Shown one piece after another: positions 1,607-25,609 of a stretch of 64,000 nucleotides of DNA. The DNA is from Methanobacteriota archaeon (lineage in GTDB: Archaea; Thermoplasmatota; Thermoplasmata; UBA10834): contig CP070732.1 of the NCBI GenBank assembly GCA_020347565.1, positions 595,972-659,971 on the forward strand, in the 5' to 3' direction. Both the position numbers and the translations under genes were made by a program. A model generated the notes under the pieces. That model was not told the origin of the DNA, did not search any database, and worked only from the letters and a program-made list of their open reading frames with translations. Within the stretch, counting starts at the first letter, position 1. Each line of letters opens with the position of its first letter.

Positions 1607-1832
1607 TGAATCCCCCCTTCGCACCGAAGGCGCCCAGGAGACGCCCGATCGCTGCGGTAGCGTCGCCTCGAGCTGGGCTGGGTCACTTACGCAATACAGC
1701 TGGAGTCCACGCAGTGTATGCGTGAACGGAAGGTGTTGCGGACGATATTGCGACTTCATAGTTAAGCCTTATGTGGACCTTCCTCCAGTCGTTCAGGCCC
1801 ATATGCGCGGATCGGCCGCCTCCTCAGCCCAA

Positions 1833-7450: not shown

Positions 7451-8564
7451 GGTTCAGCCCGGCCTTTCTCGCACCCGCGTTCAGGTTCACTTGGCAGAAC
7501 GGACACGAGGTCACGATCAGTTCCGCACCCGCCTCAGCGGCTTCCCTGACGCGGTCCGCGGCCATGTCCTCCGCCATGTCGTTGAAGGCGGACTTGAATC
7601 CGCCGCCCGCGCCGCAGCATCGGGAGTCATCCCGTTCGTGCTTCATCTCCACGAGTTCCAGCCCGGGTATGGCCCTGAGCACATTCCGTGGCGCGTCGTA
7701 GACCCTCGCGTGCCTGCCCAGGTGGCACGGGTCGTGGTACGCCACCTTCTTGTTGAACTCCTTCGAGAACTTCAGCCTGCCGTCCTTAATCAGCATGTCG
7801 AGGTACTCAGTTATGTGATAGAGTTCGAAGGCCGGCTCGCCCACCAGCTTCGGATAGTCGTTCTTGATGGTGTTGTAGCAGCCCGCGCACGCGCTGATCA
7901 TGACCTTCCTGCCGTGCTTTTCCATCTCCCTCACGTTGTGCGGCGCCAGCTCGCGCGCCACGAGGGCTTTCTGTCCCGTCCTCAGCAGGGGCGACCCGCA
8001 GCACCACTCGTCCTCCCCCATGATAGTGAACCTGACACCTGCCTTGTCCAGGATCTCAGCCGTGGCGGCCGCCAGTGGCTGCATCCTGTACGCCTCCGTG
8101 CAGCCTGTGAAGAAGACGACCTCGGGGTCGTCGGAGAGCTCGATCCCCTTTGGCAGCCACGCAGGCCGCTTCTCGGGGGGCTCGTCGTACGGGTTCCGCT
8201 TGTCGAGCACCCTTTCGGCTATCCTCTTATGGGCTTCCATCGGGCCGTAGCCCTGTGATATGAGCCACTCCTTCACCTCCTCCCAGAGGTGCGGGAAGTC
8301 GATCTCGACATGACACACGTGTTCGCAGGCACCGCATGATGTACACTGGAAAATGCGCTCCGTGAGCTTATCGTCGACCTTCGGACGACGCCTGAGTACC
8401 CTGTCAACGGGTGACCGATGGGCGATCTGCTTGAGATAGTAGACTTTGCCTCTTGGAGTCGCTGACTCCCATCCTATGCTCCTGAACACGGGGCAGGGGT
8501 CCCTGCAGTACCCGCACTGCAAGCAGGCGTTGAGGTCCTTCTCGATCTCTGAAATCCTTCTCAT
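7407..8564 (-). CDS. HdrD/GlpC-type Fe-S oxidoreductase with two CCG domains
   Basis: A 385-residue (Fe-S)-binding protein with the HdrC-HdrB fused architecture found in HdrD, GlpC and LutA-like proteins. The N-terminal ferredoxin part has CLQCGYCRDPCP and CTSCGACEHVCH. Two cysteine-rich CCG domains follow: the first contains EDEWCCGSPLLRTGQ and SACAGCYNTIK, the second HDPCHLGR, DSRCCGAGGG and TSCPFCQVN. This is the module that holds the catalytic non-cubane cluster in heterodisulfide reductase, but many relatives act on other substrates. It starts at ATG 8564; a GTG three codons upstream is possible. It is not next to the hdrA genes, so a membrane partner is an open question. The last 44 bases overlap the convergent AlkD-like gene. 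Confidence 0.85.
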   Translation of the reverse strand: MRRISEIEKDLNACLQCGYCRDPCPVFRSIGWESATPRGKVYYLKQIAHRSPVDRVLRRRPKVDDKLTERIFQCTSCGACEHVCHVEIDFPHLWEEVKEWLISQGYGPMEAHKRIAERVLDKRNPYDEPPEKRPAWLPKGIELSDDPEVVFFTGCTEAYRMQPLAAATAEILDKAGVRFTIMGEDEWCCGSPLLRTGQKALVARELAPHNVREMEKHGRKVMISACAGCYNTIKNDYPKLVGEPAFELYHITEYLDMLIKDGRLKFSKEFNKKVAYHDPCHLGRHARVYDAPRNVLRAIPGLELVEMKHERDDSRCCGAGGGFKSAFNDMAEDMAADRVREAAEAGAELIVTSCPFCQVNLNAGARKAGLNLKTSDIVQVALQAV

Positions 8565-8701
8565 GAAAATCACCGGTGAAGCGCGTCTGTCGTACCTGCC
8601 ACTGGCTCTCAGGATATCTTCGGTGTTGATAAATCTAGCGCATGACGTGCGGCACGTGTGGAGCAGCGGCCTACCGCGGCCGTTCGACGCGTGCGCCCTG
8701 C

Positions 8702-9397
8702 CTAATCGTCCGAGGACCTGAGCCTGATCTCTACGTCGGGTTCCCCTGAGTATCCCTTCAGGCTCGAAAGGAATCCCCTGATGGTCTTATCGGGTATCTC
8801 CGCGACGAACCCGCCCACGGGCAGCCTCTCACCCCCGGCGATTATCTCCACCTTGCGCGCAGGTCTCTCTGGGCAGTCATCCAGGCTCATCTTCCCTTCC
8901 GCAATCTCCCGTGCGAGGTCCCCGCAGCTGAGGCCGCACTTGCCGCAGTCCAACTTCGGCAGCTTGTCGTATGCTCTCTCGTACTCGACCTCCTTCCGTA
9001 TGTACCCGATCACCTCTTCGAGCGCAGGGTTCACGAGGACGGTGCCGTCCGCAGGTTCTATGTCTCCCAGCGCGACCTTCGGGAAGTCGCCGTCCTTGTA
9101 TCCCTCCACGAGGAGCACATCAGGGTGGAACTCCCGGCGAACAACCTCCAGCACCTCGCCAATCGCGAGCGCAGGCCGTTTTATCAGCGTCGTGCCTTCC
9201 GATGTCTGCAGCACCACAGGGTCGCCGCCGGCTTTCGAGTGCCGCCAGGAGTCCTTGCCTTCGACGTCCTGGTCCTTCTCGTGCGGGGCGTGCTTGACGG
9301 ACGAGACCGAGTAGCCCTCGGCGGAGAGGTCCTCTGTCAGTCTCTCCACGAGAGTCGTCTTGCCGGAGTCCTGCCATCCGTATATGCCCAGTATCAT
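8702..9397 (-). CDS. mobB: MobB-like molybdopterin-guanine dinucleotide protein with Fe-S tail
   Basis: A 231-residue P-loop GTPase of the MobB family (GIYGWQDSGKTTLVERL at the N-terminus, KHAPHEKDQDVEGKDSWRHSKAG next, then the DVLLVEGYKDG motif). MobB assists insertion of guanine dinucleotide into the molybdenum or tungsten cofactor. Residues about 147-172 add a CdhD/RnfB-type four-cysteine cluster motif (DCGKCGLSC and, later, DDCP), so this is a fusion with a small 4Fe-4S domain. It implies a molybdo- or tungstoenzyme, such as a formate or formylmethanofuran dehydrogenase, elsewhere in the genome. The gene is upstream of the HdrD-like gene on the same strand, separated by 137 bp. Confidence 0.88.
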   Translation of the reverse strand: MILGIYGWQDSGKTTLVERLTEDLSAEGYSVSSVKHAPHEKDQDVEGKDSWRHSKAGGDPVVLQTSEGTTLIKRPALAIGEVLEVVRREFHPDVLLVEGYKDGDFPKVALGDIEPADGTVLVNPALEEVIGYIRKEVEYERAYDKLPKLDCGKCGLSCGDLAREIAEGKMSLDDCPERPARKVEIIAGGERLPVGGFVAEIPDKTIRGFLSSLKGYSGEPDVEIRLRSSDD

Positions 9398-11338: not shown

Positions 11339-11694
11339 ATGCTGCAAGACGACTATATGGGCGTCGCCGTCTTCGCGATTGTGGCCATCCTTTTTCCAAC
11401 CCTTGCATTCTTCGTCTCGCGTTACTTCCGGACGGACAGGAACGACCCTAGGTCGATGACGACCTACGAGTGCGGCGAGGTGCCCATAGGCGACGCGCAG
11501 ATACAGTTCCACTTCCAGTACTATATGTACGCCATCATCTTCGTCGCCTTCGACCTCGTGACGGTGTTCGTGCTCATATGGGCGCTGGTCTTCTCGGGGC
11601 TGAGCGACATCGCGAAAGTCTACATGCTCATGTTTCTGGGAGTTCTTCTCGTGGGCGTCACCTACGCCCTGAAGAAGGAGGAGATAGTCTGGAT

Positions 11695-11698
<4 letters not shown>
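11339..11698 (+). CDS. fpoA: Fpo/NADH dehydrogenase-like subunit A
   Basis: A 119-residue membrane protein with three predicted helices, corresponding to NuoA/FpoA at the base of the complex I peripheral arm. The signature [37 protein letters not shown], with its conserved Cys, Glu and Asp, is intact. The start is the ATG at 11339, placed about 25 nt after the TATA box; an upstream-extended reading frame is not supported. It is the first gene of the operon and overlaps fpoB by ATGA. Confidence 0.93.
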
Positions 11699-12267
<569 letters not shown>

Positions 12268-12279
12268 GGGTGTTGAGGG

Positions 12280-12789
12280 ATGTCCGAAGGGGGGAACGCT
12301 GGCAGAGTCACTGGCGCGAGCATCGAGAGGGCGCCGAGCAAGGTGGGTGACGATTCGGAGTTCCGCGTGCTCAGGACGCTCGCGGAGCGGTTCCCCAGGA
12401 CGGTCTCCGAGGGCACGCAGGTGAGGCCGGGTTTGCTGAGAGCGACGGTCGAGCGCTCAGACCTGTTCGGCGTGTGCAGGGTGCTGAGAGACGAGCTGGG
12501 CTTCGAGCACCTGAGCATGATATCCGCCGTCGACTACGAGGACAGGTTCGAGGTGGTATACCACATCACGTCGTACCAGCACAGGCTATTCCTCGAACTC
12601 ATAACCGCGACGCCGAAGGACGATCCCTCAGTCGATTCCATATCTTCCGTCTGGGGAGGCGCGAACTGGCAGGAGAGAGAGGCTTACGACCTCATGGGCG
12701 TCGTCTTCCGGAGCGATCCCAAGCTGGAGCGCATACTGTTGCCCAAGGACGTGCTCTACCATCCTCTGCGGAAGGATTTCCGGGGGTGA
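12280..12789 (+). CDS. fpoC: Fpo/NADH dehydrogenase-like subunit C
   Basis: A 169-residue NuoC/FpoC (30 kDa subunit) homologue of the peripheral arm. The conserved segments are FEHLSMISAVDYEDRFEVVYHI and SSVWGGANWQEREAYDLMGVVF, followed by RILLPKD and the HPLRKDF ending. It is encoded separately from subunit D, unlike the NuoCD fusion of enterobacteria. The first 35 residues are variable and Ser/Arg-rich. Confidence 0.93.
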   Translation: MSEGGNAGRVTGASIERAPSKVGDDSEFRVLRTLAERFPRTVSEGTQVRPGLLRATVERSDLFGVCRVLRDELGFEHLSMISAVDYEDRFEVVYHITSYQHRLFLELITATPKDDPSVDSISSVWGGANWQEREAYDLMGVVFRSDPKLERILLPKDVLYHPLRKDFRG

Positions 12790-12795
12790 CCATGC

Positions 12796-13878
12796 ATGGC
12801 TGAGATGTGGATAAACATGGGACCCCAGCATCCGATGACGCACGGGCTCTGGAACCTTCGCGTCAAGGTCGACGGCGAGACGATAGTAGACGCCGAGCCG
12901 GAGGTGGGGTACCTTCACCGGGGGATAGAGAAGCTCTGCGAGGGCAGGACATACCCGCAGATTATCCCCATCGCCGACAGACTCTGCTACGGCTCGTCGA
13001 TGACCTGGTCCCACGCATACTGCTTGACCGTGGAGGACCTGATGGGCGTCGAGGTGCCTGAGCGGGCCGAGTACATACGCGTCATGACGATTGAGATGCA
13101 GAGGATCGCCTCGCACCTCATGTGGCTCGCGGCCTACGCGGGCGACCTCGGGCTTTCGGTCGGATTCACCTACACAATGAGGGACAGGGAGGTCTTCGTG
13201 GACCTCCTCCAGGGCCTCACCGGCTCGAGGCTCACGTACAACTATCCGAGGATAGGAGGGGTGGCGCACGACCTTCCTCCCGACTTCGGAAGGGACGCGA
13301 TCCGGGCCACCCGCTACATGGAGAAGCGGCTCAAGGAGTACGAGGACCTGTTTGAGGGCTCGAAGATCTTCATGATGCGCAATGTCGACGTCGGCGTCCT
13401 GAGCAAGGAGGACGCGATCAACCTCGGCGTGACCGGTCCATCTCTGAGGGCGAGCGGCGTGGACTACGATCTCAGGAAGGACATGCCGTACTCCGTCTAT
13501 CCCGAGATGGACTTCCGGGTCGCGACGCACAGCGACTGCGACTGCTACGCCCGGTACCGGGTCAGGATGGACGAGATGTGGGAGAGCTGCCGGATCATCC
13601 GCCAGGCAATCGAGAAGATGCCCAAGGGAAGGTGGAGGGTCGTCGCCCCCAGGAATGCTCCCGTCGGCACAGGCGTCGGGAGGGTAGAGGACCCGAGGGG
13701 GGAGGCCGTCATGTATGTAGTCGGGGACGGCACGGATAGGCCGTACCGACTGAAGATCCGAAGCCCGATATTCGTCACCGTGTCGGCCGCGCCGAAGATA
13801 CTCGTCGGGTACAAGCTGGCGGACGTCGTCGCCATCATGGGCGGATTGGACATGTGCATCGGGGAGAACGATAGGTGA
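12796..13878 (+). CDS. fpoD: Fpo/NADH dehydrogenase-like subunit D
   Basis: A 360-residue NuoD/FpoD (49 kDa) homologue, related to the large subunit of NiFe hydrogenases but without its nickel-binding cysteines. MWINMGPQHPMTHGLWNL near the N-terminus forms part of the quinone pocket. EVGYLHRGIEKLCEG, ASHLMWLAAYAGDLG and the C-terminal VVAIMGGLDMCIGENDR are all family-typical. With FpoB it forms the quinone-reducing site. It starts six bases after fpoC, and fpoH begins four bases after its stop. Confidence 0.94.
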   Translation: MAEMWINMGPQHPMTHGLWNLRVKVDGETIVDAEPEVGYLHRGIEKLCEGRTYPQIIPIADRLCYGSSMTWSHAYCLTVEDLMGVEVPERAEYIRVMTIEMQRIASHLMWLAAYAGDLGLSVGFTYTMRDREVFVDLLQGLTGSRLTYNYPRIGGVAHDLPPDFGRDAIRATRYMEKRLKEYEDLFEGSKIFMMRNVDVGVLSKEDAINLGVTGPSLRASGVDYDLRKDMPYSVYPEMDFRVATHSDCDCYARYRVRMDEMWESCRIIRQAIEKMPKGRWRVVAPRNAPVGTGVGRVEDPRGEAVMYVVGDGTDRPYRLKIRSPIFVTVSAAPKILVGYKLADVVAIMGGLDMCIGENDR

Positions 13879-13882
13879 GGAA

Positions 13883-15010
13883 ATGAACCTGTTCGAGTTC
13901 TGTCACGGCATCATCCACTGGCTCGTGGACCTGGTCAACAACGTCTGGTATTGGCTGGGCGATTTCCTGCCGTGGTACTTCTGGGAATTCTTCACCGCAG
14001 TCGGAGACTTCGCGGCGTCGGAAAGCCACCTGACGCTCATGACGATTCTCCTCGAGACGCTTATCATCATCATCGTGGCGCTCATCAACGTGCTCAACTT
14101 CCTGTGGATATTCAGGAAGCTCAGCGGCAGGATACTCGACTTCTACGGACCGTACTACGTCGGGTACAGGATAGGCGGCTGGCTCCAGAACCTCGCCGAC
14201 GGCGTGAAACTCTTCGTCAAGGAGATAATCGTTCCGGCCAAGGCAGACAGGCTCGGTTACCTCCTTGCGCCCATCATCTTCGTGGGCTCATCGCTGTTGA
14301 TTCTCGCCGTCATACCGCTGAGCGTCGACTTCGGAGTCGCGACGAACGCATCGGGCGAGTACGTGCCCGCGGGTGCGGTGTTCGCCCTCGCGGCCTTCTC
14401 GATCGCGCCGTTCGCGATACTGCTCGCTGGATGGTCATCGAACAACAAGTACACGCTGATAGGCGGCATGAGGTCCGCGGCCCAGATGATGAGCTACGAG
14501 ATACCGCTCATACTCAGCGCTGCAAGCGTGTTCCTGCTGGCCAGCAGCTTCAACTTCGTCGACATCGTCGACGCTCAGCACGATGTCTGGTTTTGCATAC
14601 CGCTGTTCATCGGATTCGTCGTGTTCCTCGTTTGTCTGATAGCAGAGGTGGAGATCATACCGTTCGACCTTCCAGAGGCGGAGGCGGAACTCGTGGAGGG
14701 ATGGACGACCGAGTACGGCGGCATGAAGTTCGGCTTGTTCTACATGACTACAGCTGTGAGGTCCTACGCCGGAGGTGCCCTGGCGACGGCGCTGTTCCTG
14801 GGGGGCTGGCAGGGCCCCTGGTTCATCCCGGACGAGATATGGTTCCTGATCAAGGCGTACATCGTCTACACGGTCTTCATGTGGCTCACTTGGTCCGTTC
14901 CCAGGATAAGGATAGACCAGATGCTCGTGTTCGGCTGGAGGAGGCTCCTGCCCCTCGCCGTGCTGAACCTGGTCATTGCCGTTGCCGTGAAGTCGTGGGG
15001 GTGGGTTTGA
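13883..15010 (+). CDS. fpoH: Fpo/NADH dehydrogenase-like subunit H
   Basis: A 375-residue integral membrane subunit (NuoH/FpoH) with about eight helices, which seals the quinone cavity and couples redox chemistry to the proton pumps. The loop motif EIIPFDLPEAEAELVEGWTTEY, followed by GGMKFG, is fully conserved. The N-terminal 60 residues are rich in Trp and Phe and longer than in most NuoH proteins. The stop overlaps the ATG of fpoI by one base. Confidence 0.93.
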   Translation: MNLFEFCHGIIHWLVDLVNNVWYWLGDFLPWYFWEFFTAVGDFAASESHLTLMTILLETLIIIIVALINVLNFLWIFRKLSGRILDFYGPYYVGYRIGGWLQNLADGVKLFVKEIIVPAKADRLGYLLAPIIFVGSSLLILAVIPLSVDFGVATNASGEYVPAGAVFALAAFSIAPFAILLAGWSSNNKYTLIGGMRSAAQMMSYEIPLILSAASVFLLASSFNFVDIVDAQHDVWFCIPLFIGFVVFLVCLIAEVEIIPFDLPEAEAELVEGWTTEYGGMKFGLFYMTTAVRSYAGGALATALFLGGWQGPWFIPDEIWFLIKAYIVYTVFMWLTWSVPRIRIDQMLVFGWRRLLPLAVLNLVIAVAVKSWGWV

Positions 15011-15918
15011 TGACCGAGCGCAGGAAGCGCAGGGCCGCGGGCGTCGTGCTTCAGCCGATGAAGCGTACCGGAAGACAGCTGGTGAGGACGCTGATAACCG
15101 GTAAGCCCAACACGGTCCTCTATCCCTATCAGAAGCTCGACCTGCCGCAGGTCTATCGCGGGAAGCATGTGCTCGACTTCAACAAGTGCATCGGATGCGG
15201 CAACTGCGTGACGATATGCCCCAACGACTGCATGTGGCTCGAGAAGGTCGAGGACCCTGAGCTGGGCAAGGTGGAGCGCCCCGGGGTGGACATCGGAAGA
15301 TGCCTGTTCTGCGGTTTCTGTGCGGAGGTGTGCCCCACCGTGGCGCTGCACATGACGACCGACTACGAGCTCGCAGACAACGACAGGCAGAGGCTGAGGC
15401 TCGGATCGGCCGACATCAGGGACGACTCGTTCGGCGCCACCTTCATGGAGGAGCGCCAGAAGCGGCTCCTCCCCGTCCTGGACCTGTCCAAGTGCACGGG
15501 CTGCGAGAAATGCGCCGGTGAGTGTCCCGAGATGTGCATCGCGATGATGCCCATAGACCGGACTGGTAGGAAGAAGCCCGAGATCAACCTCGCCAAGTGC
15601 ACCTCGCACGGCAAGTGCGCGGAGGCGTGCCCGGAGGACGCGTTGACCATGGTCGAGGTGTACGAGTCGTACTTCGACATGCCCGAGCCGAGGCTGGTGC
15701 TGGAGAAATGCACCGGCTGTGGGGCGTGCGCTAGGAAGTGCCCGTCGGAGGCCATATACATGCTCGAGATGCCCGGGACGGAGAAGACGCTCAAGAGCGG
15801 CAAGAAGGGCAAGCCCAAGAAGCGCGCCGTATTCGTCTTCGAGAAATGCGTCGGATGCGGAAGGTGCTACCAGGCCTGCAAGTTCGACGCGATCGAAATG
15901 CCGGGGGTGAAGAAGTGA
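15010..15918 (+). CDS. fpoI: FpoI fused to a polyferredoxin (six 4Fe-4S motifs)
   Basis: A 302-residue subunit, twice the usual NuoI/FpoI length. The first third is an ordinary NuoI with cysteine motifs at 60/63/66/70 and 98/101/104/108, preceded by the RGKHVLDFNKCIGC context. Two more ferredoxin modules follow: 162/165/168/172 with 197/203/207, and 234/237/240/244 with 280/283/286/290. The fourth motif has His200 where the second cysteine would be (CTSHGKCAEAC), so it may bind a His-ligated cluster. NuoI normally relays electrons from the input module to N2. Here the extra clusters could be the ferredoxin docking and entry site, since no FpoF or NuoEFG is present; that role is inference. It overlaps fpoH and fpoJ by one and three to four bases. 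Confidence 0.92.
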   Translation: MTERRKRRAAGVVLQPMKRTGRQLVRTLITGKPNTVLYPYQKLDLPQVYRGKHVLDFNKCIGCGNCVTICPNDCMWLEKVEDPELGKVERPGVDIGRCLFCGFCAEVCPTVALHMTTDYELADNDRQRLRLGSADIRDDSFGATFMEERQKRLLPVLDLSKCTGCEKCAGECPEMCIAMMPIDRTGRKKPEINLAKCTSHGKCAEACPEDALTMVEVYESYFDMPEPRLVLEKCTGCGACARKCPSEAIYMLEMPGTEKTLKSGKKGKPKKRAVFVFEKCVGCGRCYQACKFDAIEMPGVKK

Positions 15919-16178
15919 CCTGGGAGCTGCTCGTCTTCCTGTTCCTCGCGGGCTCGGCCCTAGTATCCGCCATGTGGGTGATATCCGCGAAGGAGATCGT
16001 GCACAGCGTTATCGCCCTTGCGACCTGCTTCATATCGATCGGCTGCCTGTTCGTGATGCTCAATGCCGAGTTCGTCGCGATAGTCCAGTTCCTTGTCTAC
16101 GTCGGAGCGGTCACTATCGTGATCCTGTTCGGTATCATGCTCACAAAGCGGGAGATAATGGGGGGTGAGCGGAGATGA
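15915..16178 (+). CDS. fpoJ: FpoJ N-terminal half
   Basis: An 87-residue membrane protein matching the first three helices of NuoJ, including the conserved LVYVGAVTIVILFGIMLT segment with the pi-bulge helix. It starts at GTG overlapping the fpoI stop (GTGA). The rest of NuoJ is encoded by the next small gene, a split also known from methanosarcinal Fpo operons. The split is therefore ancestral rather than a fresh frameshift: the junction has its own overlapping ATG. Confidence 0.85.
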   Translation: MTWELLVFLFLAGSALVSAMWVISAKEIVHSVIALATCFISIGCLFVMLNAEFVAIVQFLVYVGAVTIVILFGIMLTKREIMGGERR

Positions 16179-16435
16179 GGCGTGCTGTCACCAGGGCGCT
16201 CGCTGTGTGCCTCCTGGCCCTACTGTTCGTACTGGCCGTCACGGAGGCCTCGTGGCCTGAGGGGGAGATGGACCGGATCACCAACGAGCAGCTCGGCGAG
16301 GAGCTGTTCGGCACGTCGGGAGACGACGGCGACGATGTCGAGGGCTACGGCCTCGTGTTCTTCCTGGTCGGCCTCCTCCTGCTCGTCGCGATGCTCGGCG
16401 GAGTTTTCCTCGCCAAGGAGGAGGAAGGAGAATGA
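16175..16435 (+). CDS. fpoJ: FpoJ C-terminal half
   Basis: An 86-residue protein with two hydrophobic helices (LAVCLLALLFVLAVTEA and YGLVFFLVGLLLLVAMLGGVF) joined by an acidic loop. By position and topology it is the C-terminal part of NuoJ. The ATG overlaps the preceding stop (GATGAG) and the end overlaps the fpoK start. Sequence similarity alone would be weak; the operon position makes the assignment. Confidence 0.8.
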   Translation: MRRAVTRALAVCLLALLFVLAVTEASWPEGEMDRITNEQLGEELFGTSGDDGDDVEGYGLVFFLVGLLLLVAMLGGVFLAKEEEGE

Positions 16436-16752
16436 TACCGATAGAGTATTGGCTGGTCTTCAGCTCCCTCCTGTTCTCGATAGGCGCCTACGGCGTCCTG
16501 ACGCGCAGGAACGCCATCGTCGTCCTCATGTGCATAGAGATCATGCTGAACTCCGCGAACATCAACCTCGTGATGTTCAGCTCGTATCACTCGGTCCTTC
16601 ACGTCGGGGTGGACCCTTCGGGCCAGGTGTTCACCTTGTTCTCGATCGCCATAGCCGCCGCCGAGGTCGCTGTCGGGCTGGCGATCCTGCTCTCCGTCTA
16701 CAGGCGGTATCAGACGATCGAAGTCGACAAGATAAACATCCTGAGGTGGTAG
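16432..16752 (+). CDS. fpoK: Fpo/NADH dehydrogenase-like subunit K
   Basis: A 106-residue three-helix NuoK/FpoK homologue. The two membrane glutamates used in proton translocation are in IVVLMCIEIMLNSANINLV and in AIAAAEVAVGLAILLSVYR. The length is normal. It overlaps the upstream gene by ATGA and ends one base before fpoL. Confidence 0.95.
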   Translation: MIPIEYWLVFSSLLFSIGAYGVLTRRNAIVVLMCIEIMLNSANINLVMFSSYHSVLHVGVDPSGQVFTLFSIAIAAAEVAVGLAILLSVYRRYQTIEVDKINILRW

Positions 16753-16753
16753 A

Positions 16754-18715
16754 ATGCTCGAGTACGCGTGGCTCATACCGGTCTTTCCCTTCGCGGCATT
16801 CATACTCATCTCGATACTGCCGAAACGCACGCTGTCCTGGGAGGACGGCGCGGGATACGCGATAGGCGGCGCCTTGGGCGCGTTCGCCCTGTCGATGCTC
16901 GTCATCTGGGACGTCATCGCGGGGAATACGATGGTCGGCGACGGTCCGAAGTTCGAATGGCTGGTGATAGGCGACATATCCGTAGTGTTCGGTATATGGA
17001 TTGACGAGCTGACAGCCATCATGCTCGTTGTGGTGTCCGTTGTCGGCACCCTCGTCGTTTTCTATTCCGGCGGATACATGCACGGGGAGGGCGAGAGGCG
17101 CAGGCGGTACTACGCCGAGATAACGCTCTTCATATCGGTCATGTACGGCCTGGTCATATCCGACAGCTACCTACAGATGTTCATCTTCTGGGAGCTCGTG
17201 GGCCTTTGCTCCTACCTACTCATAGGCTTCTGGTACGAGAAGCCGTCGGCTGCGAGCGCGGCGAAGAGGGCCTTCATAGTTACGCGCGTCGGCGACATCA
17301 TGTTCATGGCCGGCATAATCATACTGTTCAAGTACGTCGGCTCGCTCGACTTCGCTACGCTGTTCGACGGCGGCGCCGGCGCGGCCGTCCCCACCGACAT
17401 GATGGTCCTCGCCACGGCTCTGATATTCGGCGGAGCGATAGGCAAGAGTGCCCAGTTCCCGCTTCACGAATGGCTTCCGGACGCCATGGAGGGCCCCACG
17501 ACCGTGTCCGCGCTTATACATGCGGCCACCATGGTCAAGGCGGGCGTCTACCTCACCGCGCGCTCGTATCCACTGCTCGTCCAGGCGCCGGAGAGCCTCA
17601 TGCTCGTGGCCGTCATAGGAGGCGTGACCGCGCTAATCGCGGCCACCGTCGCCCTGGTCGCCACGGACATCAAACGCGTGCTGGCGTACAGCACGATCAG
17701 CCAACTTGGATACATGACGCTCGCGCTGGGCGCCGGCGGTTACCTCGTCGTCTACGCTGGAAGCGGAGCCGGATACTCCGCGGCACTGCTGCACCTCATG
17801 AACCACGCGTTCTTCAAGGCGCTTCTGTTCCTCTGCGCCGGCAGCGTGATTCATGCCGTCGGCACGAACGACATGAGGTTCATGGGCGGCCTCGGGAAGA
17901 AGATGCGCATCACGTCGCTGACGATGTTGTTCGGCGCCATCGCGATATCCGGCATACCGCCCTTCTCAGGCTTCTGGAGCAAGGACGAGGTTCTCGCCGC
18001 CGTGTACAGCGCAGGCGAGTTCGACAGCCTGTTCTTCCTGCTGTGGGCGATGGGCATCGCCACTGCCTTCATGACGGCCTTCTACATGTTCCGCATGTGG
18101 TTCATGACTTTCGCCGGCGACCCGAGATCGGACTACCAGGCGCATGAGTCGCCTAGGCTGATGACGGTCCCGCTCATCATCCTCGCCGCCCTGGCGTTCT
18201 CGTCGGGCTTCGCCCTGTTCATCGGGGACGGCTTCGGCATGTTCGCCGAACACTCGATAGGCTCGCTGTTCCACGGAGCACACCACGGCTCCGCGATGGA
18301 CCTCCTCGCCGGGATATTCGGCGATCCGCTGACCTACGTCTCCCTGGTGCTTGCTGCCGCGGGCATACTGGTGGCCTACGCCGTCTACGGCAAGCCAGGC
18401 TTCGACAGGTCCGTTTTCGCCAAGGGCGTAGGGGGCGCACTGCAGAGGGCGCTTGAGAACAGGTGGTACATTAGCAAATTCTACGACGACTTCGCGGTGA
18501 AGGTCGTGTACGGCCTGTCGCTTGTCGCCGACGCGTTCGACAGGTATGTGATCGACGGCATGGTCAACGGGTTCGCTTTCCTCGGGACGAAGTCAGGCGA
18601 GATTCTTCGAAGGGCGCAGAGCGGGAACGTGCAGCGCTACGCGAGCCTGATAGTCGTCGGTCTGTGCCTGTTGCTCATATTCATGCTCTACATAGTCCCG
18701 TGGGGAGGGTGGTGA
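16754..18715 (+). CDS. fpoL: Fpo/NADH dehydrogenase-like subunit L (antiporter-like)
   Basis: A 653-residue polytopic antiporter-like proton channel (NuoL/FpoL). Conserved segments include FIFWELVGLCSYLLIGFWYEKPSA, KSAQFPLHEWLPDAMEGPTTVSALIHAATMV, LVATDIKRVLAYSTISQLGYM and SGIPPFSGFWSKDE. The lysines and glutamate of the central hydrophilic axis are present. The C-terminal amphipathic helix and last transmembrane segment (LIVVGLCLLLIFMLYIVPW) are retained. It is followed by fpoM after four bases. Confidence 0.95.
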   Translation: MLEYAWLIPVFPFAAFILISILPKRTLSWEDGAGYAIGGALGAFALSMLVIWDVIAGNTMVGDGPKFEWLVIGDISVVFGIWIDELTAIMLVVVSVVGTLVVFYSGGYMHGEGERRRRYYAEITLFISVMYGLVISDSYLQMFIFWELVGLCSYLLIGFWYEKPSAASAAKRAFIVTRVGDIMFMAGIIILFKYVGSLDFATLFDGGAGAAVPTDMMVLATALIFGGAIGKSAQFPLHEWLPDAMEGPTTVSALIHAATMVKAGVYLTARSYPLLVQAPESLMLVAVIGGVTALIAATVALVATDIKRVLAYSTISQLGYMTLALGAGGYLVVYAGSGAGYSAALLHLMNHAFFKALLFLCAGSVIHAVGTNDMRFMGGLGKKMRITSLTMLFGAIAISGIPPFSGFWSKDEVLAAVYSAGEFDSLFFLLWAMGIATAFMTAFYMFRMWFMTFAGDPRSDYQAHESPRLMTVPLIILAALAFSSGFALFIGDGFGMFAEHSIGSLFHGAHHGSAMDLLAGIFGDPLTYVSLVLAAAGILVAYAVYGKPGFDRSVFAKGVGGALQRALENRWYISKFYDDFAVKVVYGLSLVADAFDRYVIDGMVNGFAFLGTKSGEILRRAQSGNVQRYASLIVVGLCLLLIFMLYIVPWGGW

Positions 18716-18719
18716 CGAC

Positions 18720-20237
18720 ATGCTGGAAAACGTGCCTGTCCTGTCGCTGACGATCCTCCTGCCGTTGGTGGGAGCGCTGGTCACCTTCACCCTGGGCAAG
18801 CGCGAGAGTATGGCGAAGTGGGTGGCGTTGGCCTTCTCGGCGGCTGCATTCCTTCTGTCCCTCGCAGTCGCGTTCGAATTCGTAGTCGACCCGTACTCCG
18901 CGGCCCCCGGCGAGTTGGACGGCTACAGCAACGGCTACCAGTTCTACGAATCCCATGTGTGGATTGAGTCGCTTGGCATCAACTACATCGTGGGAGTGGA
19001 CGGCATCAGCCTGCCCCTGTTCGTCCTCACCACGCTCCTCTGCATGCTGTCCATAATATTCTCGTGGGATACGGACCACAGGCCCAAGGAGTACTTCGGC
19101 CTCATGCTGATACTGGAGGTCGGCGTCCTCGGGGTGTTCGTCGCCCTGGACTACTTCATGTTCTACGTCTTCTGGGAGATAGTCCTGATCCCGATGTATC
19201 TGATGATCGGCATCTGGGGCGGCCCTAACAAGGACTACGCGGCCATCAAGTTCTTCATCTACACCCACATAGCTAGCCTGGCGATGCTCATCGCCATAAT
19301 GGCGATGTACTTCGAGGCGGGCCTGAGAACCTTCAGCATCGAGGCTATCGCCGAGGTGAGCGTGGACTTCAGTAGCGGCCTCCAGCTGGCGATCTTCGCG
19401 GCCATGTTCTTCGGCTTCGGTGTCAAGCTTCCGATGGTGCCGTTCCATACCTGGCTGCCTGACGCGCACGTCGAGGCACCCACGGCTGGGAGTGTGCTCC
19501 TTGCGGGCCTGCTGCTCAAGATGGGTGGCTACGGCCTGATTCGCGTCGCCATCCCGTCGCTGCCGTCGGGCGCGGAGGACATGGTCTTCGTGATGGCCGC
19601 GATCGCTGTGGCCAGCATCCTGTACGGCGCCATCCTGTGCCTCGCGCAGGCCGATCTCAAGAAGATGGTCGCCTACTCGTCAATCAGCCACATGGGCTTC
19701 GTCCTGCTCGGATATGCCACGCTGGGCGAACTCGGCGTGGTCGCAGGCGTGTTCCAGATGTTCGCGCACGGCCTCGTCACCGCAGTCCTGTTCATGATGT
19801 GCGGAGTCGTCCAGCACAAGTGCGGTACGAGGATGATACCCCTCCTCGGAGGCCTTGCGAGTAGGATGCCGGTGGCCGCGACGCTGATGACGGTAGGCTT
19901 CCTCGCGTCGCTCGGCCTGCCCGGCCTGGTCAGCTTCGCTGCGGAGTTTATGGTCTTCGCCGCAATGTTCTTCAAGTGGGGCATGTGGATATTCCTGCCT
20001 ATCACGGCCGTCGCCGTGACGGCGGCGTACTACCTGTGGGCCCTGCAGCGGTCGATGTTCGGTCCCATGACCAATAGGATCGAAACCTCCCATGTGAGAG
20101 ATGTCGATTGGTACGAGGGCGTCCCCGTGGCGGTGCTTATAGTCCTCATAGCCGTGTTCGGCGTGTTCCCTGCGCTCGTCTTCTCGCGGATAGGCCCGGC
20201 CGTCGAGATAGCCCTGAGGGCTTTCGGAGGTGGCTGA
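18720..20237 (+). CDS. fpoM: Fpo/NADH dehydrogenase-like subunit M (antiporter-like)
   Basis: A 505-residue NuoM/FpoM homologue with about 14 helices. Marker segments are FYVFWEIVLIPMYLMIGIWGG, KLPMVPFHTWLPDAHVEAPTAGSVLLAG, LAQADLKKMVAYSSISHMGFV and FLASLGLPGLVSFAAEF. It is one of the three proton-pumping channel subunits of the membrane arm. It overlaps or abuts fpoN, depending on the start used there. Confidence 0.95.
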   Translation: MLENVPVLSLTILLPLVGALVTFTLGKRESMAKWVALAFSAAAFLLSLAVAFEFVVDPYSAAPGELDGYSNGYQFYESHVWIESLGINYIVGVDGISLPLFVLTTLLCMLSIIFSWDTDHRPKEYFGLMLILEVGVLGVFVALDYFMFYVFWEIVLIPMYLMIGIWGGPNKDYAAIKFFIYTHIASLAMLIAIMAMYFEAGLRTFSIEAIAEVSVDFSSGLQLAIFAAMFFGFGVKLPMVPFHTWLPDAHVEAPTAGSVLLAGLLLKMGGYGLIRVAIPSLPSGAEDMVFVMAAIAVASILYGAILCLAQADLKKMVAYSSISHMGFVLLGYATLGELGVVAGVFQMFAHGLVTAVLFMMCGVVQHKCGTRMIPLLGGLASRMPVAATLMTVGFLASLGLPGLVSFAAEFMVFAAMFFKWGMWIFLPITAVAVTAAYYLWALQRSMFGPMTNRIETSHVRDVDWYEGVPVAVLIVLIAVFGVFPALVFSRIGPAVEIALRAFGGG

Positions 20238-20238
20238 G

Positions 20239-21720
20239 TTGGAAGTCTTGGATGTTCTGGGTGCCTTCATGCCGCAGCTGCTGCTTGTGCTGTTTGCCCT
20301 GGCGCTGCCCGCCCTGGACTACCTGTTCAAGGACAAGCGCGTCTTGGCCTTCGCGACCCTGGCGCCCCTGGTCGGATACGCCCTCGCCCTGGTCTCGTGG
20401 ACGGTGGGAGGCTACTGGGAGCCCCCGACGGACGGCGTGTCGCCGCATCTCATAGAGATCGACATGTTCTCTGGGCTGTTCGCCCTGGCGTTCGTATCCG
20501 TGGGCATCATCGTGGTGCTCAGCTCCCCGGAGTTCATACGCGGTGAGAGGAACCAGGGCGAGTACTACGCGCTCATACTCCTCGCCGTGACTGGGATGAC
20601 CGTCGTGGCCATGTCGACCGATCTGATCATACTGTTCGTCGGCCTGGAGATAGCGGGAATTGCGTCGTTCGCACTCTCGGGCTTCAGCAAGGGCGAGAAG
20701 CGCTCAGCGGAGGCTGCTACCAAGTACTTCATCGTCGGAGGGTTCTCCTCCGCCCTCACTCTGTTCGCGATATCGTTGTTCTACGGTGTTGCAGGAACGA
20801 CGGAGATAGCGGCGCTCGGGCCCGAGATGAGCGCGATGCTCTCTGCCGTCGATGGAACGCGGTCCGTCGCCGTCATGGCGACGGTCATGCTGATAGCCGG
20901 GCTGGGCTTCAAGATCGCTGCCGTGCCGTTCCACATGTGGGCCCCGGATGTATACGAGGGCGCCCCCACGCCGATATCGGGGCTGCTCGCCGCCGCCTCG
21001 AAGAAGATGGGGGTTGCGGCGCTGTTCAAGATATTCCTGATAGGCATCATCGCAACCAAGTCCGACTGGGACGTGGCCCTCGGCGCGATGGCGATTCTGA
21101 CGATGACCGTCGGGAACGTGATTGCCGTCGTGCAGACGAACATCAAGCGCATGCTCGCCTACTCGTCCATCGCGCAGGCGGGATACATACTCATAGTCCT
21201 GCCGATCGGCACCGACTACGCGGTGGCGGGCGGCCTGTTCCACGTCGTCACGCACGCGTTCATGAAGTCGGGGGCGTTCATGGTCGTCGCTGCGCTGGTA
21301 GTCCGGGGCGTGGGTGAATCGATAGACGACTATCGGGGGCTGGCGAAGCGGTCGCCGCTGCTCGCTCTGGCGATGACACTGTTCCTGCTCTCGTTGGCGG
21401 GCATACCACCTCTCGCCGGCTTCGCGAGCAAGTTCGTCCTCTTCTCCTCCGCGGTCGACGCGGCGCTCGTCCCAGGCCAGTCGTGGCTCATATGGCTCGC
21501 GGTCGCTGGCGTGCTAAACAGCGCCCTCTCGCTTTACTACTACGCGCGCGTGATCAAGCGGATGTACATGGAGAAGGGGTCGGATGATAAGGTGAGCGTT
21601 CCTCGCATGGCTGGCACGGCAATCCTGTTCGCGTCCGTCATGACCGTGCTCCTCGGCGTCTACTTCGACGCGGTGTTCGACCTCTGTCAGCAGGCCGCGG
21701 CGGCGCTGTTCGGGACATGA
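20239..21720 (+). CDS. fpoN: Fpo/NADH dehydrogenase-like subunit N (antiporter-like)
   Basis: A 493-residue NuoN/FpoN homologue that closes the operon. Conserved parts are ILFVGLEIAGIASFALSGF, KIAAVPFHMWAPDVYEGAPTPISG, QTNIKRMLAYSSIAQAGYIL and SLAGIPPLAGFASKFVLF. The TTG at 20239 has GGAGGT seven bases upstream and is preferred; a GTG at 20230 would overlap that ribosome-binding site and add three residues. No fpoO or fpoF follows: the next gene is convergent. Confidence 0.94.
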   Translation: MEVLDVLGAFMPQLLLVLFALALPALDYLFKDKRVLAFATLAPLVGYALALVSWTVGGYWEPPTDGVSPHLIEIDMFSGLFALAFVSVGIIVVLSSPEFIRGERNQGEYYALILLAVTGMTVVAMSTDLIILFVGLEIAGIASFALSGFSKGEKRSAEAATKYFIVGGFSSALTLFAISLFYGVAGTTEIAALGPEMSAMLSAVDGTRSVAVMATVMLIAGLGFKIAAVPFHMWAPDVYEGAPTPISGLLAAASKKMGVAALFKIFLIGIIATKSDWDVALGAMAILTMTVGNVIAVVQTNIKRMLAYSSIAQAGYILIVLPIGTDYAVAGGLFHVVTHAFMKSGAFMVVAALVVRGVGESIDDYRGLAKRSPLLALAMTLFLLSLAGIPPLAGFASKFVLFSSAVDAALVPGQSWLIWLAVAGVLNSALSLYYYARVIKRMYMEKGSDDKVSVPRMAGTAILFASVMTVLLGVYFDAVFDLCQQAAAALFGT

Positions 21721-21730
21721 CCGTCCAGGT

Positions 21731-22669
21731 TCAGGACAGCCCAGAGGCCATGAGCCCGAGGGCCAGCAGCAGGCCCACCATGGCGTGCGTTTGCACAGTC
21801 ATCGCCTGGGCGGGCAGCAGCCGGCCGAAGTGCGAGTGTTCTCTCAGGGCGAGTCTGACGGCCCTCACCGCGACCACCGCGGGAGCGAGGGCCAACAGGG
21901 TCCATACGGGCAGCACCTCCGCCGCGACGAGTACCACTATGAGCACGAACGCGGACGCCATCAGGCCAGCATACCACATCGCCGCCCTGTGGAGGCCCAT
22001 CCTCACAACCCAGTGCGTCTTGCCGACCCTGCCGTCGGCCTCCGCGTCGGGGAATTGATTGATGAAGAGCACCAGCCCGATGAGCACACCGATCGGCAGG
22101 CCCGCCACGAACGGCGTCCACGTTATCTCTCCGGCCTGAACGAGATAGGCTCCGGCAACGACGAGCGGGCCAAAGCCCGATCCTACTGCCACCTCGCCCA
22201 CGCCTCTCGCGGCCAAGTGGGCCCTCGGGGATGTGTAGAAGTACCCGAGGCCTATGCCCAACACGCCCAACGGGATGATCAGCAGAGACACTGAGAGGGC
22301 CAGGACGACGCCGATGGTGGCGCCGATGGCGAAGAGCATCAAGGCCGCTCTGTATATCTGCTCCGGCGTTAGGACCCCTTCCACGACGAACGGACTGCCT
22401 CCGTTGAACGGGCTCCTGTTTTCGTTGATCCTGTCCGTGCCGCTCCTGTAGTCGAAGTAGTCGTTGACGACGTTGGTGCCCGCGTGGATGAACAGAACCC
22501 CGAGGAGCGTCAGGGCGAAGAGGAAAGAGTCGAATGAGTAGCCTTCGTGCCACGCGAACAGGGCGCCGAATACGGTCGGGACGATGGTCGCAGTGAAGAA
22601 CGGCGCTCGTATCTCTAGGAACCATACCTTCAGCCCGGGACGAGGGCCTCTGTCCTTCTTTTCGTCCAT
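21731..22669 (-). CDS. menA: UbiA/MenA-family prenyltransferase
   Basis: A 312-residue membrane prenyltransferase with about eight helices. The first aspartate-rich motif is NVVNDYFDYRSGTDRINENRSPFNGG, which is MenA-like (naphthoate prenyl transfer) rather than the DGGGP synthase version. The second is INQFPDAEADGRVGKTHWVVRMG, again MenA-like. It would attach a polyprenyl chain to an aromatic head group to make menaquinone, or in methanogens a methanophenazine-like molecule. It sits between the fpo operon and a trans-prenyl synthase, UbiE-like and reductase set, which supports an electron-carrier role. Head-group synthesis genes are not in the window. Confidence 0.87.
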   Translation of the reverse strand: MDEKKDRGPRPGLKVWFLEIRAPFFTATIVPTVFGALFAWHEGYSFDSFLFALTLLGVLFIHAGTNVVNDYFDYRSGTDRINENRSPFNGGSPFVVEGVLTPEQIYRAALMLFAIGATIGVVLALSVSLLIIPLGVLGIGLGYFYTSPRAHLAARGVGEVAVGSGFGPLVVAGAYLVQAGEITWTPFVAGLPIGVLIGLVLFINQFPDAEADGRVGKTHWVVRMGLHRAAMWYAGLMASAFVLIVVLVAAEVLPVWTLLALAPAVVAVRAVRLALREHSHFGRLLPAQAMTVQTHAMVGLLLALGLMASGLS

Positions 22670-22702: not shown

Positions 22703-22812
22703 GATGCGGAGGGCATGCGCCGACGGGGTGTGCGGCACTCGGCGTGCACTCCTTGGTGGCCCGCTGGCACTGTAGCCAGTAAACCACTAGTGTTAAGTAG
22801 ATATTGGCTCAT

Positions 22813-23796
22813 ATGCGGATTTCGATGAGTTCTACCCCCTGGGATTTCGGCGTAGGCAAGGAGCTAAAGATGGTCGAGGACCGGCTCCAGGAAATGACTG
22901 AGTCGGGGGAGGGGCTTCTCACAGAGGCCTCGAGACATGTCGTCAGCGCGGGTGGCAAGCGCCTCAGGCCAACGATAGCGATTCTTGCATACAAGAGCCT
23001 CGGGGGTGAGGACACGGGCAAGATAGTGGACATAGCCGCTGGTTTCGAGCTGATCCACTCCGCGACACTAGTCCACGACGACATAAACGACGGCGGCAAG
23101 ACGCGTCGCGGTAGGGTGACGGTCTACCGCAAGTACGGTCTGCACAATGCGGTGGTGGTCGGTGACTTCCTCTTCGTCAAGGCGTTCGCGCTGGGGGGGA
23201 TGTACGACAGGGAGATCGTCAGGACAACGGCGGACGCCTGTGCGAAGCTCGCCGAGGGAGAGATAGTCCAGAGTCGATTCAGACACACCCACGACCTGGA
23301 CATGGACGGATACTTACAGATAATGGAGAGGAAGACGGCTGAGCCCATGAAGGCAGGGGCCGTGGTCGGAGCCTATCTGGCCGGCGGCACCGCCGAGGAG
23401 GTGCGGTGTCTCGGCGCCTATGGACTGAACCTGGGAGTGGCGTTCCAGATAATCGACGACGTACTGGACTTCGTCGGCGACGAGGCGTTGACAGGTAAGC
23501 CTGTCGGGACGGACCTCAAGGAGGGCTACCTGACTCTGCCCTCGTTGATAGCTATGAAGGACTCCGAGGAGGTCAGGACAGCTGTCGCGAAGGCGATCGA
23601 CAGGGAGGACGCCACCCCCGAGGAGATCGGCCGCTGCGTCAAGTTAGTCGTCGACTCAGGCGCGATCGACAAGGCGCGCGCGATGGCTGAGTATTACGCT
23701 ATGGAGGCGCTCCAGCATCTGGGATGCCTTCCCAACACGCCCTATAGCGAGGCCCTGAGAGACTTGGTGTCCAGGGTGTTGGAGAGAGACTCGTAG
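22813..23796 (+). CDS. trans-polyprenyl diphosphate synthase (GGPP/longer-chain)
   Basis: A 327-residue IspA/GGPPS-family enzyme that elongates allylic diphosphates with IPP. GGKRLRPTIAILA precedes the first aspartate motif, LVHDDINDGGKTRRG (a DDxxD variant with spacing DDIND). The second motif is FQIIDDVLDFVGD. Chain length cannot be read safely from the sequence; its place among menA-, ubiE- and reductase-type genes suggests it makes the quinone side chain, the other possibility being the C20 lipid precursor. ATG at 22813 or 22825 is possible as the start; a TTG at 22804 is less likely. The methyltransferase gene follows by 26 bases. Confidence 0.88.
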   Translation: MRISMSSTPWDFGVGKELKMVEDRLQEMTESGEGLLTEASRHVVSAGGKRLRPTIAILAYKSLGGEDTGKIVDIAAGFELIHSATLVHDDINDGGKTRRGRVTVYRKYGLHNAVVVGDFLFVKAFALGGMYDREIVRTTADACAKLAEGEIVQSRFRHTHDLDMDGYLQIMERKTAEPMKAGAVVGAYLAGGTAEEVRCLGAYGLNLGVAFQIIDDVLDFVGDEALTGKPVGTDLKEGYLTLPSLIAMKDSEEVRTAVAKAIDREDATPEEIGRCVKLVVDSGAIDKARAMAEYYAMEALQHLGCLPNTPYSEALRDLVSRVLERDS

Positions 23797-23822
23797 TAGA
23801 GTTGCAGCGCAGGTGCTCGCAG

Positions 23823-24548
23823 ATGAACCATAGCGGGATGACATCGTCGGAATGGCTCGAAGTCATAGAAGCGATGGAGGAGGTCGCGCCGTACTACGAC
23901 AGGGTCAACCAGCTGATAACCCTCGGCATGGCCGAGAGATGGCGCGCCGAGGTGGCCACCCAGGCCGATGAGGAGGACGTCGTGCTCGAGGTCGGCTCGG
24001 GCCCTGGGACGTTCGCCAGGCATCTGCGCGCGAGGAGGGTCTACTGTCTCGAGCCTTCCGGGAGCCTGATACGTATGTCGCGCGATGGCCTCCCGGACGA
24101 GCCATACGAGCTTATAAGGGGGGTGGGCGAGCGCGTACCCCTCGCCAGCGGGTCCGTCGACAAGGTGTTCTGCTCATTCTCCTTCAGGGATTTCAGGGAC
24201 AGGGACGCGGGAGCGTCCGAGATGCTGCGGGTGCTTAGGGAGGGCGGCGAGCTCTTCATTGCGGATGTCGCCAAGCCTCCACCGAGTCCGATGGCGAAGC
24301 TGCTCGAGATGCATGTGCGTCACATCGTCCCTGTGATGGCGCGCGTGGCTGTACACCAGAGCGCGAGGAAACGCCTGAGCAAGGACCCATACCGCAAGTT
24401 CGCAGAGACCTACGACGCCTTCGGCTTCACCTCGTTCTACGAGCGGCTGCTGCGGTCGAAAGGCTTCGACGATGTCTCCACCAAGCCCCTCAGGCTGGGC
24501 GGCGCCACGCTTACAAGGGGGAAGAAACCCTGGAAGTCGACGTCCTAA
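23823..24548 (+). CDS. UbiE/MenG-like methyltransferase
   Basis: A 241-residue class I SAM-dependent methyltransferase. Motif I is VVLEVGSGPGTFARHL, after the family-typical VAPYYDRVNQLITLGMAERWR. It continues with SVDKVFCSFSFRDFRDRDAGASEMLRVLREGG, which matches UbiE/MenG, the C-methyltransferase of ubiquinone and menaquinone synthesis. The start at ATG 23823 is chosen over an upstream TTG. The end overlaps the reductase gene if that gene uses its CTG start. Substrate assignment rests on the neighbourhood. Confidence 0.82.
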   Translation: MNHSGMTSSEWLEVIEAMEEVAPYYDRVNQLITLGMAERWRAEVATQADEEDVVLEVGSGPGTFARHLRARRVYCLEPSGSLIRMSRDGLPDEPYELIRGVGERVPLASGSVDKVFCSFSFRDFRDRDAGASEMLRVLREGGELFIADVAKPPPSPMAKLLEMHVRHIVPVMARVAVHQSARKRLSKDPYRKFAETYDAFGFTSFYERLLRSKGFDDVSTKPLRLGGATLTRGKKPWKSTS

Positions 24549-25609
24549 TAGTGGGCGCCGGTCCCGCTGGCAGCACGACGGCGAAGTACTGCGCTCATCG
24601 AGGCGCGGATGTCCTCGTGATCGACAGGAGGAAGGAGATAGGCCATCCAGTCCAGTGCGGCGAACTGCTCCCCCACGCGAAGGAGATGTACTCGATGTTT
24701 CCGAGGGGCATCGAGCTCGAGGAGCTGTTCGACATCGACCATTCGACGGTGGACGGCGAGAGCGATACGATTGAGATGATCTCCCCCCGGGGCAGAGCCT
24801 ACAGGATTCCGTTCTCGTCGCACGTATTGAACAGACGGTCCTTCGACAAGCGCCTCGCCAAAGGCGCCGAGGAGGCCGGCGCCAGAGTTATGACCGGCAC
24901 GTCGCTCCTGTCAGTCGACGAGAGCGGCGTCGCGGAGACGACGGCAGGGCAGATCAAGGCCAAGGTCGTAGTCGGGGCTGATGGGCCGAATTCGAGGACG
25001 GCGAGGGAGGCGGGCCTGGAGAGGCCTAGGCCATCTTATCCTGCCATAGCCTGCAGGACCGATTCGACCTTCGGCAGCGAGGTCAGGATGTTCTTCGGCG
25101 CTGCGGCTCCCGGAGGATATGCTTGGGTGATACCGAAGGACCGAGGGGCCAACATAGGGGTGGGCTACAGCCAGGCGATGTGCTCCGCCAAGCCGACCGA
25201 GCTGCTGAAGGCTTTCGCCTCCTGGCTGGGCGTTTCCGTCCGCGAGGAGGCTCTGGGCTTCGTGCCTCTGGCTGGGCCTTCCCGGCGCACGACGTCTGGG
25301 AGATTCGTGCTCGTGGGCGACGCCGCGGGACATACGATGGCGTCGAACGGAGGCGGCATCCCTACGGCGATGATCGCGGGAAGGGAGGCGGGGCGTGTCA
25401 TCAGGAGGCATCTCGAAGAGGGCGCGCCCCTCAGCGATTACGAACTCGCTTGGCGGGCGTTCATGGAGGGACCACTCATCAGATCGCACAAGACGCTCAG
25501 ACTCGCGGGCTATGCCTTCAGGAACGATGCGCTCACCGGATTGGCGATGGCGATGTTGGGACGCCGCGGTCTGGATCGCGCAATCAGGTGCAGGCGACTA
25601 TTTCTGTGA
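24530..25609 (+). CDS. Geranylgeranyl reductase family flavoprotein, probable CTG start
   Basis: A 359-residue FAD-dependent reductase. It has the N-terminal Rossmann motif DVLIVGAGPAGSTTA, the VVGADGPNSRTAREAG region and the second FAD motif VGDAAGHTMASNGGGIPTAMIAGREAG. Relatives saturate geranylgeranyl chains of archaeal lipids or of menaquinone. The first standard start codon (GTG, 24551) would remove the first beta strand of the Rossmann fold, and no ATG, GTG or TTG exists further upstream in frame. A CTG at 24530 lies seven bases after AAGGGGGA and restores the fold, so a CTG start is proposed. The gene overlaps the ubiE-like gene by 19 bases. Confidence 0.83.
   Translation: MEVDVLIVGAGPAGSTTAKYCAHRGADVLVIDRRKEIGHPVQCGELLPHAKEMYSMFPRGIELEELFDIDHSTVDGESDTIEMISPRGRAYRIPFSSHVLNRRSFDKRLAKGAEEAGARVMTGTSLLSVDESGVAETTAGQIKAKVVVGADGPNSRTAREAGLERPRPSYPAIACRTDSTFGSEVRMFFGAAAPGGYAWVIPKDRGANIGVGYSQAMCSAKPTELLKAFASWLGVSVREEALGFVPLAGPSRRTTSGRFVLVGDAAGHTMASNGGGIPTAMIAGREAGRVIRRHLEEGAPLSDYELAWRAFMEGPLIRSHKTLRLAGYAFRNDALTGLAMAMLGRRGLDRAIRCRRLFL

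Follow-up and report, generated by a model that had tools for sequence, protein, structure and literature searches.

The fpo operon in the window (the whole stretch of 64,000 nucleotides analysed here) encodes a complex I-like enzyme whose FpoI subunit carries six ferredoxin-type motifs. Judging from sequence, we consider it somewhat probable that this is an 11-subunit headless Fpo/Nuo complex in which FpoI, a tandem polyferredoxin, acts as a ferredoxin-docking relay to N6a-N6b-N2 and quinone. The operon is complete and tightly packed, with the order A-B-C-D-H-I-JN-JC-K-L-M-N. Profile matches recovered all of the subunits that had been named in the original prediction, the C-terminal part of FpoJ falling just under its cut-off. 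The genes of the operon and those that follow it are:

11339..11698, + strand: FpoA/NuoA (PF00507)
11695..12267, + strand: FpoB/NuoB with the N2 ligand pattern CC...C...C (PF01058, cysteines)
12280..12789, + strand: FpoC/NuoC (PF00329)
12796..13878, + strand: FpoD/NuoD without the CxxC NiFe ligand pairs (NF004739, 443.7 bits)
13883..15010, + strand: FpoH/NuoH (NF004741, above cut-off)
15010..15918, + strand: FpoI/NuoI with six ferredoxin-type motifs (TIGR01971, 167.5 bits; motifs; conserved within its taxonomic order)
15915..16178, + strand: N-terminal part of FpoJ (PF00499)
16175..16435, + strand: C-terminal part of FpoJ (PF00499, 32.2 bits, just under the cut-off of 33.2)
16432..16752, + strand: FpoK/NuoK (PF00420)
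16754..18715, + strand: FpoL/NuoL (NF005141, above cut-off)
18720..20237, + strand: FpoM/NuoM (TIGR01972, above cut-off)
20230..21720, + strand: FpoN/NuoN (TIGR01770, above cut-off)
21731..22669, - strand: UbiA-family prenyltransferase, likely for quinone synthesis (PF01040)
22804..23796, + strand: polyprenyl synthase (PF00348)
23802..24548, + strand: UbiE/MenG-type methyltransferase (PF01209)
24551..25609, + strand: geranylgeranyl-reductase-like flavoprotein (PF01494, PF22578)

Identity as a group 4 [NiFe] hydrogenase was rejected, as FpoD lacks any CxxC. Together with the N2 cysteines of FpoB, this marks the enzyme, by sequence, as a quinone reductase rather than a hydrogenase. The genes of UbiA, polyprenyl synthase and UbiE types after the operon are likely quinone-synthesis genes.

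The operon contains no gene for FpoF, FpoO or NuoEFG, as had been noted at the outset. The presence of fpoF or nuoEFG elsewhere in the genome, with a normal docking surface, had been named as evidence that would count against the proposal. PF04432 (FpoF/FrhB type) and PF01512 (NuoF/RnfC type) had no match genome-wide, in a genome that is ~90% complete by the estimate given with it, and none in the 20 further genomes of the order. Without PF04432, the enzyme lacks the F420-binding FpoF of an F420H2 dehydrogenase sensu stricto, and FpoI scored 117.5 bits against NCBIfam NF040612 (FpoI of F420H2 dehydrogenase), below the cut-off of 180. Across the class, the complex-I operons seen had no input module, either with two-motif FpoI (families f13 and f18) or with FpoI of four to six motifs. 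PF01512 matches in two class members with extended FpoI (G021 and G057) were inspected, and both were rejected as complex-I inputs: the first appears to be the RnfC of an Rnf operon, and the second is NuoF-like and adjoins a formate-dehydrogenase-like gene. Since the two-motif complexes of the class are headless too, the extension elaborates a complex that is without a module throughout the sampled class, and has replaced no lost module. The expected co-occurrence of extended FpoI with loss of FpoF or NuoEFG was not seen, there being no loss to correlate.

The fpoI ORF starts with ATG at 15010 and stops at 15918, and its 302-aa product has six motifs of the CxxCxxCxxxC type, with first residues Cys60, 98, 162, 197, 234 and 280. 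In the fourth motif (C-T-S-H-G-K-C), His200 stands in the second-Cys position. The ORF and the motif reading thus confirmed the length, the number of motifs and the histidine first reported for this gene. When the residues of FpoI were shuffled 20,000 times, no shuffle yielded more than two CxxCxxCxxxC motifs. The best match to NCBIfam NuoI (TIGR01971) spanned residues 30-133 (cut-off 113.05 bits), and FpoI outside these residues matched PorD/ferredoxin-type families. With six motifs, FpoI departs from the NuoI family, which has two clusters only, and its sequence has the several tandem 2[4Fe-4S] domains of a polyferredoxin. Its parts are:

15166..15414, + strand: NuoI core, residues 53-135, motifs 1-2 (N6a, N6b); aligns with PDB complex I NuoI chains
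15481..15675, + strand: middle di-cluster domain, residues 158-222, motifs 3-4 (motif reading, alignment)
15607-15609, + strand: codon of His200, second-Cys position of motif 4
15694..15900, + strand: C-terminal di-cluster domain with motifs 5-6, residues 229-297 (its eight Cys are all invariant; net charge)
15793..15825, + strand: Lys/Arg-rich loop, residues 262-272, between motifs 5 and 6 (K-P-K-K-R, charge)

Ligand and charge statistics were taken from 19 six-motif FpoI sequences. Invariant Cys occupies 22 of the 24 ligand positions. The second position of motif 3 is Lys in the two f2 sequences, and that of motif 4 is His in six sequences, Cys in nine, Gln in two, Lys in one and Glu in one. 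This variability led us to reject His200 as a conserved special ligand, and it suggests that His is one of several substitutes. The motif-4 cluster may be a [3Fe-4S] cluster or have a non-Cys ligand, options that are familiar from ferredoxins in general. The middle pair (motifs 3-4) tolerates the loss of one Cys, and motifs 5-6 are at least as conserved as the NuoI core and far more so than the linker. The C-terminal domain has a net charge of +7 to +12 in all 19 sequences; the core and the middle domain are slightly acidic, at -6 and -3 respectively in the FpoI of the window. Clusters 5-6 are therefore the best-conserved and most basic domain of FpoI. The K-P-K-K-R of the loop is invariant across the alignment, and we propose this loop as a candidate ferredoxin contact. 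In the four-motif relatives examined, the charge of the terminal pair ranged from -6 to +4, without a strongly basic head. An AlphaFold2 model of FpoI, made with 24 sequences, had a mean pLDDT of 79.3 and a pTM of 0.67; within the ferredoxin domains, most blocks of ten residues had a pLDDT of 75-92. Foldseek matched the core of this model to complex I NuoI chains and the whole chain to the FwdF polyferredoxin, the latter with poor global superposition.

Intact six-motif FpoI was found in 19 of the 21 genomes of one Thermoplasmata order, the source genome included; in the other two, one copy was cut by a contig end and the MAG G009 had no match. The orthologues of relatives share 55-84% identity, and the gene order around the fpo operon is kept over ~20 kb in the order. 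Order members among the matches listed were RBG_13_57_23, SpSt-1159, Hel0.bin85, bin352 (CP070748), Zod_Metabat.1462 and Prado237. The dN/dS values per FpoI region lay mostly between 0.02 and 0.2 and were low for each of the three regions, although dS approached saturation in many pairs. Collectively, these sequence comparisons support a fusion that is real, conserved and under purifying selection. An assembly error that joined NuoI to a separate ferredoxin, a weakness raised with the original prediction, has practically no chance of being the explanation: no point was found in its support, and the 19 intact orthologues come from separately assembled genomes, some on single contigs, with conserved gene order.

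Motifs in Thermoplasmata were counted in operons with a full complex-I gene set. FpoI has two motifs in families f13 and f18, four in f6, f9, f10, f15, f19 and f20, and six in f1 and f2. The FpoI of f3 is extended and has one degenerate motif; in G021 it is a 331-aa protein (L128) with a long N-terminal extension and a degenerate motif without the first Cys, and the genome also has an Rnf operon. Four-motif FpoI was also seen outside Thermoplasmata (f29, f43) and is thus common across the phylum. The f6 and f20 genomes searched contain mcrA, and because of this we read these families as Methanomassiliicoccales; cultured Methanomassiliicoccales probably have a four-cluster FpoI. Families f9, f10 and f18 include COX1-bearing genomes, which are probably those of oxygen-respiring organisms. 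Four-motif FpoI was found in two of these families (L149, L150 and L152 in f9; L115-L118 in f10), suggesting that the extension is not limited to anaerobes.

In the NuoD tree, the four- and six-motif rows formed one group (96/92), with f3 just outside it, and the six-motif rows formed one clade (98/98). A full-length six-cluster match was obtained in only the two sampled members of the source order among 295 phylum genomes. In the contig scan, the matches listed were mostly two-cluster bacterial NuoI, and among them full-length matches occurred only in order members, at 58-83% identity. Six clusters are thus a trait of one order among four-cluster relatives. An expansion from two clusters to six had been predicted; the six are real, but the closest relatives have four, so that the step in question is four versus six, not two versus six. 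The second pair of f9 is the orthologue of motifs 5-6 (80-82 vs 29-39 bits), and the second pairs of the other four-motif proteins gave weak and ambiguous scores. A simple one-step fusion is therefore unsupported.

In the relay that we favour, reduced ferredoxin, the presumed donor, would dock on the basic di-cluster domain at the C-terminus (motifs 5-6). If all clusters are occupied, electrons would pass from there through the middle domain (motifs 3-4) to N6a-N6b and on to N2 in FpoB and a quinone, probably of the menaquinone type. Running in this direction, quinone reduction would power the movement of ions through H, L, M and N. Reduction of the ferredoxin itself would fall to 2-oxoacid oxidoreductases and to HdrA-type bifurcation that uses H2 or formate. 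We favour this relay because of the anatomy of the basic terminal domain and by analogy with two known enzymes: cyanobacterial NDH-1, in which a basic pocket of NdhI binds ferredoxin and electrons enter at N6a (PMC7021789), and the headless Fpo of Methanomassiliicoccales, which is reported to oxidise ferredoxin (PMC7374477). The docking wire suggested in the original prediction thus gains from the basic C-terminal pair and from its location in the subunit where ferredoxin docks on NDH-1, but it does not stand as a substitute for a lost module. Two observations speak against the relay, namely the Cys loss tolerated in the middle pair and the four-cluster relatives without a strongly basic head. 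In addition, two-cluster headless complexes exist in f13 and f18 and ferredoxin enters NDH-1 at N6a, which indicates that ferredoxin can be used without the extra clusters.

Cyanobacterial and chloroplast NDH-1 resembles the complex described here in having an 11-subunit core without the NADH module (PMC7021789). In contrast, NdhI has two clusters, and the small subunits NdhS, V and O aid docking instead of fused ferredoxin domains. The headless Fpo-like complex of Methanomassiliicoccales, FpoABCDHIJKLMN (PMC4153887, PMC7374477), has the same subunits, a split FpoJ and no FpoF or FpoO, and the mcrA-bearing relatives have a C-terminally extended FpoI. It differs in that this FpoI has four motifs and no strongly basic head, and in that its hosts are methanogens, whereas the source order has no mcrA.

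The genome offers several routes to reduced ferredoxin, through POR (four loci), through HdrA and hydrogenase and through formate dehydrogenase. HdrA and HdrB/C-like genes and a Vhu/Mvh-type hydrogenase lie in one large cluster at G000:C1:360000-381000 (L190, L191), which holds several HdrA-type genes of 703 to >1000 aa, HdrB/C-like and MvhD-like genes and the Vhu-type hydrogenase. The second hydrogenase of the genome is of the sulfhydrogenase type. The formate dehydrogenase adjoins an HdrA-like gene, and beside its locus are genes that read from sequence as C1-pathway-like. COX1 and mcrA were not found in the genome, and mcrA was found in none of the six-cluster order. RnfC (searched by PF01512) and group-4 hydrogenase were also not found in the genome, the PF00374 matches being the two hydrogenases and NuoD. 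Of these known kinds of pump that oxidise ferredoxin, Fpo is therefore the only one seen. A plasmid search found nothing. Within the window, tandem HdrA-like genes lie at 1-305 and 302-1759 (- strand), comprising an FAD/Fe-S part (485 aa) and then an ORF with an HdrA-like N-terminal start. At 8702-9397 (- strand), a MobB protein to which an Fe-S domain (PF04060) has been added adjoins a B12-binding radical SAM protein.

HdrA-type proteins might be more than a source of ferredoxin. The extra clusters of FpoI could dock an HdrA-containing bifurcating complex directly, giving an Fpo-Hdr supercomplex that works without free ferredoxin. The genomes of the six-cluster order have 8-12 HdrA-type matches each, and in the source genome HdrA-like genes lie at window 1-1759 and elsewhere. 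FpoI is also like FwdF/FmdF, part of an Hdr complex (7bkb), in fold and sequence, and polyferredoxin subunits dock in such a manner in Hdr-formylmethanofuran dehydrogenase complexes. However, the fpo operon contains no hdr gene, and four-cluster FpoI occurs in a genome with no HdrA (G049) and in two with weak partial matches only, which probably have none (G038, G056); we consider direct docking unlikely. That the C-terminal four-cluster arm is a permanent dock for HdrA-type bifurcating complexes throughout the order, in an Hdr-Fpo supercomplex, seems rather unlikely. If true, it would mean that bifurcated low-potential electrons enter a complex I-like pump directly.

It is quite improbable that Fpo runs mainly in reverse, with quinol and the membrane gradient being used to reduce ferredoxin for biosynthesis or for the fixation of CO2. 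The reaction of complex I can run both ways, and the C1-pathway-like genes beside the formate dehydrogenase locus are consistent with such a use. A similar role has been proposed for NUO-2 of Nitrospina (PMC3578206). Against this, the genome can already obtain reduced ferredoxin through POR, HdrA and hydrogenase, and no quinol-producing donor was identified in it. Another soluble partner could dock on the extension or accept electrons, for example the HdrD/TfrB-like CCG-domain protein encoded at window 7407-8573 (- strand). Throughout f1, its gene is found at a constant position upstream of the operon (74-86% identity), and HdrD has been proposed as an acceptor in Methanomassiliicoccales (PMC7374477). 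The gene is, however, divergent and separated from fpoA by 2.6 kb that hold other genes, its distance in f2 is greater by several kb, and likely quinone-synthesis genes adjoin the operon, all of which make such a partner very improbable. Lastly, the extension could be a structural cap that shields N6a and carries little electron traffic. The NuoG position is empty in headless complexes, which is compatible with a cap, but almost all ligand cysteines are invariant and a mere cap would not need them; this explanation is highly improbable.

Some elements of the ferredoxin relay are already known, namely headless ferredoxin-dependent Fpo/Nuo and the free-standing polyferredoxins of energy-converting enzymes. 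In EhaP, EhaQ, EhbK, MvhB and FwdF, too, 2[4Fe-4S] domains are arrayed in tandem beside a membrane complex or a bifurcating one (PMC3087415), and FwdF and MvhB were sequence or fold matches of FpoI. Those are separate proteins, whereas the array of the source genome is fused to NuoI. NUO-2 of Nitrospina and Kuenenia is likewise a complex I with extra Fe-S clusters proposed for ferredoxin, but these clusters are in NuoF/NuoG (PMC3578206) and not in the NuoI of a headless enzyme. Searches of open-access literature turned up no description of a NuoI to which two more ferredoxin domains are fused, a negative of limited reach.

Which donor passes electrons directly to complex I-like enzymes with 11 subunits has been described as an open question (PMC11238625). 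In Thermoplasmatota, headless complexes that are otherwise similar carry FpoI with two, four or six clusters, a natural series in which exchanging or shortening a single subunit could test the role of the input end. As cultured Methanomassiliicoccales probably have the four-cluster form, part of this test could be carried out in existing organisms. Fusing ferredoxin domains to NuoI is another way to elaborate the input of complex I than NuoEFG or FpoF. A different input-module addition to NuoI was seen in the same phylum (G067, f34), where a 623-aa ORF (L199) that adjoins the B, C and D genes fuses NuoI to a GltD-like flavoprotein and resembles NCBIfam PRK13984 (putative oxidoreductase).
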